Origin: Deltaproteobacteria bacterium
Lineage (GTDB): Bacteria > Myxococcota_A > UBA9160 > UBA4427
Length of the DNA stretch: 64,000 nt
Direction of reading: 5' to 3'
Assembly: GCA_002719955.1 (NCBI GenBank)
Contig: PBFW01000019.1
Location: 1-64,000, forward strand
Of this stretch, positions 54,496-56,541 are shown piece by piece. A model generated the notes under the pieces. It had not been told where the DNA came from and made no database searches. It saw only the letters and a list, made by a program, of their open reading frames with translations. Position 1 is the first letter of the stretch, and the number at the start of each line of letters is the position of its first letter. The translations under genes were made by a program, and so were the position numbers.

Positions 54496-54876
54496 TCAAA
54501 TGTCGTAGCCGATGTTGTATTCGATGATCTGCCCCTGGTGAAGTTTCAGCAGGTCGGTGTAGGGGTGATATTGATCGGGCTGGGCTGGGAGCGTGATCTT
54601 GAGAAATCCGCGCACCGCGACGAAAGAGCCCTCGATCTTGATATGGGTTGGAAGATGTTCGGTCCGTTCGTGCCGCTGCTCTCGGAAGCGATTCGATTCT
54701 GTGAGGAAGGCGAGATAGTCCTGGCGATCGGAGGGCTCGTCGACGCCCTCGACACCCGGCAAATTGAGCTCGAGGTCGGCGTGAAGGTATTTGGAGAGTC
54801 TCTCGCCATTCCCTTCGTCCGTTGCGCGAAAAAGATCCTGAAAATCGAGCAGATCCATTCTGTCCTCCCCGGCCAT
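54496..54876 (-). CDS. SnoaL/NTF2-like protein
   Basis: 'FQDLFRATDEGNGERLSKYLHADLELNLPGVEGVDEP...GQIIEYNIGYDI'. Confidence 0.7.
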   Translation of the reverse strand: MAGEDRMDLLDFQDLFRATDEGNGERLSKYLHADLELNLPGVEGVDEPSDRQDYLAFLTESNRFREQRHERTEHLPTHIKIEGSFVAVRGFLKITLPAQPDQYHPYTDLLKLHQGQIIEYNIGYDI

Positions 54877-55075
54877 CAGCGAGCCGCCGCGTTTCGACCC
54901 GTGTCTGCGAGCACACCCGTCAGGATGCAGTCGAGGACTGCCTTCGAGAGTACCCCTTCGAGCGGTGCATCTTCGGTCACGACCCGGTTGGTATAGGCGA
55001 GGTGGACCTCCGCGAGCAGGTCCGCCATATGCCCGATCTCGACGTCGGCGCGAATCTCTCCGGGTCTGGTCATGA
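54876..55075 (-). pseudogene. C-terminal remnant of TetR-type regulator, N-terminus missing
   Basis: 'TRPGEIRADVEIGHMADLLAEVHLAYTNRVVTEDAPLEGVLSKAVLDCILTGVLADTGRNAAAR*'; upstream part replaced by the low-GC segment. Confidence 0.6.
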
Positions 55076-56132
55076 GTTGAGTATGATCGGGGGAGGGAAC
55101 ATCCCCTCTGGAGCCAACCACTTCTTTGTTGATATCCAAGCGCCAGATCTTGCTGATACCAATAACCAGCTTGAGCTTTGGCAGAAGATCATAGACAACA
55201 CAGAGATGGATCTTGGATTCTCACCAGTAGAAGTTAATGGTGTCTCTGCCATGAGAATCTATCTCCCGTTCAGAGATGAACAGGGGAAGCTCATGCCTTG
55301 GGCTAGTTCAAATAGAGCTAAAGCAGAGCAAGTAATGAACTCGATGCTGTTGACTGGCATCAGGAGAGCTGGTGGAGAAACAGACTTCGATATAGATGTT
55401 TCATATGTGCCGGGATCGATTCAAATCGCCAGCAATGATTGGACGGAGAATAAAGATGGGCAAGGTTACCTTCAGCGGTTTGAGAACAGACCCGGCGTCA
55501 TCGAAGGGCTTCGTGATAGTAGGGGGGCCGTCGAGCAGACAATCGAAGCAGCCGTCGCGAGAGGTCTCGAAAGACAAGGAGAAGGAAGAGGGTCTGTCTC
55601 TAGAGCTAAGCTCCCTGTCCGAAGTGAAGGACTTGGTAGAAGAGTCGATGGAGCAGGGCTCGACCCGAGCAATAACCGGGGCCTCCGACTTTTAGGAGAC
55701 GAGGGCAATTCCCTAGAACTCTCTGATATTCATAGAGGTGTCGGGAATACACCAGAATCTCAGAGGGCTGTATACAAAAGTCTTGGATTGGAGACTGTCC
55801 CTGACTCCAATACTTCTGACGAGCTTCGCATCTATCCCCTTGAGCAGGCTTTTGGAAGCACTGTCGAGAGTGTGGATGCAAAGCTCAAGCCTTTGCTCGA
55901 TAGCATTGGCTGGGAGTACAAAGTGTTTGGCCCCAAGTCTGGGCCAAATGGCAAAGCTTTATATCCCGACTTCCAAGATCCGAATACTGAAAGCTATGAT
56001 CAAGGTGTCGCTTGGATCTTTGATCCCTCTGTTGAAGAGGGATCTTTCAGAGACCATGCGTATACCCTTGCCTGGAGAGCTACTCACGAAGTAGCTCATG
56101 GTCTTGTCAACGATAAGATGACAGACCGATAT
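55075..56132 (+). other. Low-GC foreign segment encoding an internal fragment of a large (phage/plasmid-like) protein with HExxH motif
   Basis: Abrupt AT-rich composition; 'IPSGANHFFVDIQAPDLADTNNQLELWQKIIDNTEMDLGFSPVEVNGVSAMRIYLPF...LAWRATHEVAHGLVNDKMTDRYGG'; no start or stop of its own. Confidence 0.8.
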
Positions 56133-56541
56133 GGAGGCAGGGGCGGGTTCCCATCCTTGCAACGTCACGCCGGAGTACACGGCCCGCGCCCGAAAACAGA
56201 TGGGGCCGGAGGCCTGGCTCTGCGTCGAACAGAAGGTCGTTCTCGCAGATTCCCCGAGCCAGGCCCGCGAAATCGCACGCGCCGGGCTCTCGATCTACAT
56301 CGATGTGCCACACCAACAGCGCAACTGGAGCCGCATGGGCTTCACCGACGCGGATTATCGCGACGGGGGTTCGGATCGCCTGATCGATGCGTTGGTGGCC
56401 TGGGGAGACGAAAAAACGATTCGTGATCGGATCGACGCGCATTTCCGCGCCGGGGCGACGCATGTCTGCCTCCAGCCCTTATTGACGGCAGGGGGTCGGG
56501 TTCCCGGCGATGAGCTGCTGGAGTCGCTCGCACCGCGATAG
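56132..56541 (+). pseudogene. C-terminal fragment of LLM class F420-dependent oxidoreductase
   Basis: 'GSHPCNVTPEYTARARKQMGPEAWLCVEQKVVLADSPSQAREIARAGLSIYIDVPHQQRNWSRMGF...'; N-terminal barrel absent. Confidence 0.8.

Follow-up and report, generated by a model that had tools for sequence, protein, structure and literature searches.

An internal fragment of a giant phage gene between two truncated host genes in a deltaproteobacterial genome

A low-GC slice between two gene remnants

We analyzed a window of 64,000 nucleotides from contig PBFW01000019.1 of a deltaproteobacterial metagenome-assembled genome (MAG; GCA_002719955.1, GTDB phylum Myxococcota_A). In this window, a slice of foreign DNA lies between the remnants of two host genes that point away from each other (Table 1). 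On its left is what is left of a TetR-family regulator, whose 63 alignable residues correspond to positions 151-213 of the TetR protein of a genome from the same genus (G001), with 54% identity (tblastn). The gene downstream of the regulator is intact. It is 56% identical to the SnoaL-like gene that adjoins the TetR gene in G001, and its match to Pfam DUF4440 (E 3.8e-5) falls just under the family cut-off. On the right of the slice is the remnant of a luciferase-like (LLM) oxidoreductase, whose 128 alignable residues correspond to positions 159-286 of the LLM protein of G001, with 68% identity (tblastn); its match to Pfam Bac_luciferase is weak (profile positions 208-314, E 0.002, below the cut-off). 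The original prediction held that the regulator lacks its N-terminal helix-turn-helix (HTH) and the oxidoreductase its N-terminal barrel, and these alignments bear it out, since only the equivalents of the residues given above remain. A search of the MAG for the missing front halves returned only paralogues with 45-53% identity. We think it unlikely that the slice or either truncated host gene has a function.

Table 1 Features at the locus, with positions in the 64,000-nucleotide window
Feature	Position	Strand	Evidence
SnoaL/DUF4440-like gene, intact, downstream of TetR	54496..54876	-	Pfam DUF4440 and G001 neighbor
TetR-family regulator, C-terminal remnant of ~62 codons, HTH half missing	54876..55061	-	tblastn vs G001 TetR
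Left junction, overlap of 3 bp or less	55062..55064		DNA homology to host (G001) ends 55061, phage identity starts 55063
Foreign slice, from the interior of the giant phage gene for an LPD38 polyvalent protein	55063..56143	+	blastn vs L027/L028
Right junction, microhomology of up to ~12 bp possible	56133..56145		Phage identity ends 56143, host homology starts 56146
LLM oxidoreductase, C-terminal remnant of ~130 codons, N-terminal barrel half missing	56146..56541	+	tblastn vs G001 LLM

The slice is 1081 bp long, with edges set by blastn against two phage contigs that lie about 12 bp outside the limits originally drawn (55075-56132). From ~0.60-0.61, GC content drops to 0.46-0.54 within the slice and returns to 0.63, sharply at both edges. 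In the 1.67 Mb of the MAG that we examined, no other 800-bp stretch reaches a value as low as the minimum at the slice, 0.494; the mean there is 0.633 and the standard deviation 0.028. The abrupt low-GC segment of the original prediction is therefore the strongest outlier in these 1.67 Mb, with its edges slightly shifted. By eye, the other low-GC stretches of the genome are ordinary long open reading frames (ORFs), with dnaA-/dnaN-like genes and glycan-type enzymes among them, rather than truncated foreign fragments. The slice contains a single open frame (55074..56129; 352 residues, 0 stops) with neither a start nor a stop of its own.

Phage origin of the slice

A scan of IMG/VR identified two viral contigs (L027 and L028) that encode the protein of the slice with 89% identity across all residues. 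At the DNA level, the match to both contigs spans the entire slice without a break in the frame (90.9% identity over 1084 columns; blastn), and the two contigs are identical to each other across the region. Specifically, the slice corresponds to codons ~1697-2057 of a phage gene of 3,369 codons, a 10.1-kb ORF, and homology to the phage ends abruptly at both edges. The distinct codon usage proposed for the segment has a source in this gene: the synonymous codons of the slice fit the phage gene better than host genes (log-likelihood of -402 vs -502). Likewise, the segment had been described as one continuous internal gene fragment without start or stop, which is how it sits in the phage ORF. The original prediction pointed to phage, plasmid, and metagenome proteins as places to look for relatives, and the IMG/VR match, at 91% DNA identity, identifies a phage as the foreign source. 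Between slice and phage gene, substitutions fall 24/14/55 on codon positions 1/2/3, alongside one gap of a whole codon. Because the differences are mostly at third positions and the gap spares the frame, the alignment indicates that the slice evolved as coding sequence in a phage until recently.

The two contigs (L028:54..10163 and L027) represent an unannotated phage group with a 3,369-residue polyvalent protein. Like the LPD38 polyvalent-protein genes of phages (Pfam PF18857), the parent gene carries an LPD38 domain, in the C-terminal part of its protein; the slice itself holds neither LPD38 nor a complete domain of another known family. Both of its ends break the phage protein at arbitrary positions, the right one just behind an HEVAH motif. 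This motif, near the slice region, resembles that of zinc proteases, and the region has no match in Pfam, PHROGs, or PDB. Genes near the parent gene encode a Sak-type single-strand annealing protein, exonucleases, a RusA-like resolvase, an SprT-like protein, and a primase zinc finger. The phage has a GC content of 50% and the host one of 63.5%, a mismatch that gives no sign that the phage infects this host.

Beyond these two contigs, the slice had no relative among annotated phages (tblastn), in PHROGs or Pfam, or, by sequence, in PDB. It was also absent from GTDB r220 genomes in a pattern scan and from a sample of 378 other genomes of the phylum. Patterns built on the junctions were absent from the viral collection (both joins) and from the genome collection (left join).

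Ancestral arrangement and junctions

In G001, the TetR gene, its SnoaL-like neighbor, and the LLM gene are all intact on a single contig (C123), and their order and orientation are those seen in the MAG. Since the best G001 matches of both flanks are syntenic on this contig, the flanks were very probably neighbors in the ancestor, as judged from the alignments. By a rough estimate, two unrelated matches would lie so close and so oriented in about one case in a thousand. However, the original prediction had the slice replacing a divergent promoter shared by TetR and LLM, and this did not hold in G001, the only relative found with the gene set. There the points equivalent to the two cuts are 6.9 kb apart, and six genes lie between them, which from our reading of the sequences encode a P450, a 366-residue protein, two LLM oxidoreductases, a sulfotransferase, and a 209-residue protein. 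An intact divergent pair had been suggested as something to look for in relatives; both genes are intact in G001 and in the corresponding order, but they are separated by this interval. A simple divergent TetR-LLM pair is therefore an improbable ancestral state, and, given the spacing in G001, the loss may have extended beyond a promoter and two N-termini. The interval genes were not found beside the flanks in the MAG, which has only paralogues or relocated relatives of them. No second relative with the same gene set was found, and a search of the family for TetR orthologues turned up none close to that of G001.

At the joins, donor and recipient have microhomology at most (3 bp or less on the left and 12 bp or less on the right), as compared through proxies rather than the exact parent strains: a phage 9% away and hosts 28-35% away. 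On the right, positions 56133..56144 could match both parents, the host sequence before 56146 being one that is not conserved among homologues. No exact word longer than 11-12 bp is common to the phage region and the host flanks, and the longest one lies away from the joins. A k-mer assembler needs at least 20 identical bases to jump from one sequence to another. With a shared word so short and off the joins, an assembler jump is disfavored; unless the reads themselves were chimeric, the overlap would be too short for a k-mer or overlap assembler.

Replacement or assembly chimera

What remains of the originally proposed origins is the choice itself: an illegitimate-recombination replacement and an assembly chimera are still the only two serious candidates, without the shared divergent promoter as the ancestral state. 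We slightly favor a real replacement, in which a deletion was filled with phage DNA. On this reading, to which we give a little better than an even chance, a host stretch reaching from inside the TetR gene to inside the LLM gene gave way to 1081 bp of DNA from a lytic-type phage. The host DNA between the break points would have been deleted, amounting to ~6.9 kb if the ancestor resembled G001 and to at least ~1 kb otherwise, and the gap would have been closed by the phage fragment through end joining with little or no homology. The phage type of the donor, the truncation of both host genes, the junction sequences, and the synteny of the flanks with G001 are direct observations, and the form that they suggest is a double illegitimate recombination: a foreign donor, a host deletion, and microhomology at most, with some route of uptake that we infer. 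The captured piece would be a passenger, and it and both truncated genes would be dead. A full-length match inside a phage gene with a coding-type substitution pattern argues for a real replacement, as do two joins that lack overlap and lead back to one host locus. Furthermore, a random chimera with two joins would almost never produce flanks that are syntenic with G001. The failure to find the G001 interval genes beside the flanks and the presence of a ComEC uptake protein also count in its favor; the failure to find a Ku gene and the GC mismatch between phage and host count against it.

Alternatively, metagenome assembly or contig merging could have spliced a phage fragment into the host contig, skipping the true host sequence between what remains of TetR and of LLM. 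We regard this as a real possibility that falls somewhat short of an even chance. The genome is a MAG (94% complete, 8.6% contamination), and the slice occurs once across all collections searched, with its junctions found in no other genome. In addition, 13 interior places in the 1.67 Mb contain N, spanning up to 528 bp, as is left by consensus merging of contigs. However, no N lies near the slice, neither join has an overlap of k-mer length, and two independent faulty joins would be needed that returned to a syntenic locus in the right order and orientation. The locus resembles chimeric contigs of merged metagenome assemblies in having a foreign 1-kb piece with sharp edges in a MAG contig; it differs from them in its syntenic flanks and in joins without assembly-scale overlap. 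Secondary assembly of the Minimus2 type, in which contigs are merged, has been described (PMC5769542), and our guess is that this MAG was made in such a way.

Elsewhere in the genome, the patches of single or scattered N (L055:3429..3600, L060:14693..15220, L066:15848..16295, L108:9870..10204, and others) look as if overlapping contigs of different strains or samples had been merged into a consensus. Several stretches of the bin have a lower GC content (0.58-0.60 vs ~0.635), on L122 (C27), L136 (C41), L063 (the start of C7), and L074 (C18), and they may be part of the 8.6% contamination.

Two other genes in the MAG carry what look like deletion scars. The first is an LLM gene with a tight internal deletion (L053:7187..7846; C24 at ~65.2-65.8 kb, with the scar near 65.3 kb). 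Its front matches one G001 LLM gene and the rest matches that gene's tandem neighbor, so that ~1.1 kb is missing; only ~4 bp of sequence are common at the join. This gene adjoins a sulfotransferase gene that shares 67% identity with the sulfotransferase of the G001 interval. The second is a P450 gene (L055:3813..4500; C2 at ~50 kb) with an internal gap of ~0.53 kb relative to a colinear locus in another genome (G002); a P450 with the full interval is present on C13 at ~87.6-88.7 kb. Scattered N occur in a patch ~0.4 kb from the C2 gap, a point in favor of faulty assembly. These scars could be true end-joining deletions or, equally, assembly faults. They fit a real replacement insofar as such scars would be expected if end-joining deletions were frequent in the lineage.

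Two further accounts fared poorly. A prophage or other mobile element that integrated between the genes and has since decayed to 1.08 kb is a very unlikely source of the slice. The slice does consist of phage DNA, but it was the only match of a 16-kb phage contig piece in the MAG, and the rest of the phage contigs was not found there. No tRNA lies at the site, no tandem repeat at the slice edges, and no integrase was seen by eye on the phage pieces; furthermore, the open frame is not decayed, and a simple insertion would not have removed the front halves of both host genes. The least credible account, a domesticated gene expressed and functional in the host, would draw on the 534-residue frame that stays open from 54822 to 56426, but at both ends this frame passes through host genes that are read in another frame or from the opposite strand, the phage protein is cut arbitrarily on both sides, and, because the LLM gene (56131..56541) and the phage sequence are read in different frames, the long ORF is an accident of frames, as originally supposed.

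For a real replacement, the route into the chromosome can be narrowed somewhat. The MAG encodes a ComEC DNA-uptake protein, of a type that is widespread. A search for the end-joining gene Ku returned no match in the MAG (94% complete), and the same search found Ku of B. subtilis as a control; with no Ku gene found, classical bacterial nonhomologous end joining is unlikely. A more specific scenario, which we hold only as an outside chance, is that a fragment of a lytic phage gene was recently captured to fill a multi-kilobase deletion in an environmental bacterium without Ku, whose lineage has further end-joining deletion scars, perhaps aided by single-strand annealing and exonuclease functions like those of the phage relative.

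Two described processes come close. In natural transformation, double illegitimate recombination (Hulter and Wackernagel 2008, as described in PMC4437187) likewise integrates foreign DNA with no homology at either end; that description concerns Acinetobacter baylyi in the laboratory, whereas the event here is read from the sequence of one MAG. Homology-facilitated illegitimate recombination (de Vries and Wackernagel 2002, as cited in PMC4437187) also brings in foreign DNA with microhomology at one end, but as described there it requires a homologous anchor at the other end, and none is seen here. The event is thus either of an uncommon but known kind or an assembly chimera. If it is an artifact, phage sequence can sit in high-contiguity MAG contigs between truly syntenic flanks, and tools for host assignment and gene calling would take such sequence for host. 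If it is real, it would be a clear natural case in which phage DNA took the place of chromosomal genes without homology, from an identified donor and with both break points located to within a few bases.
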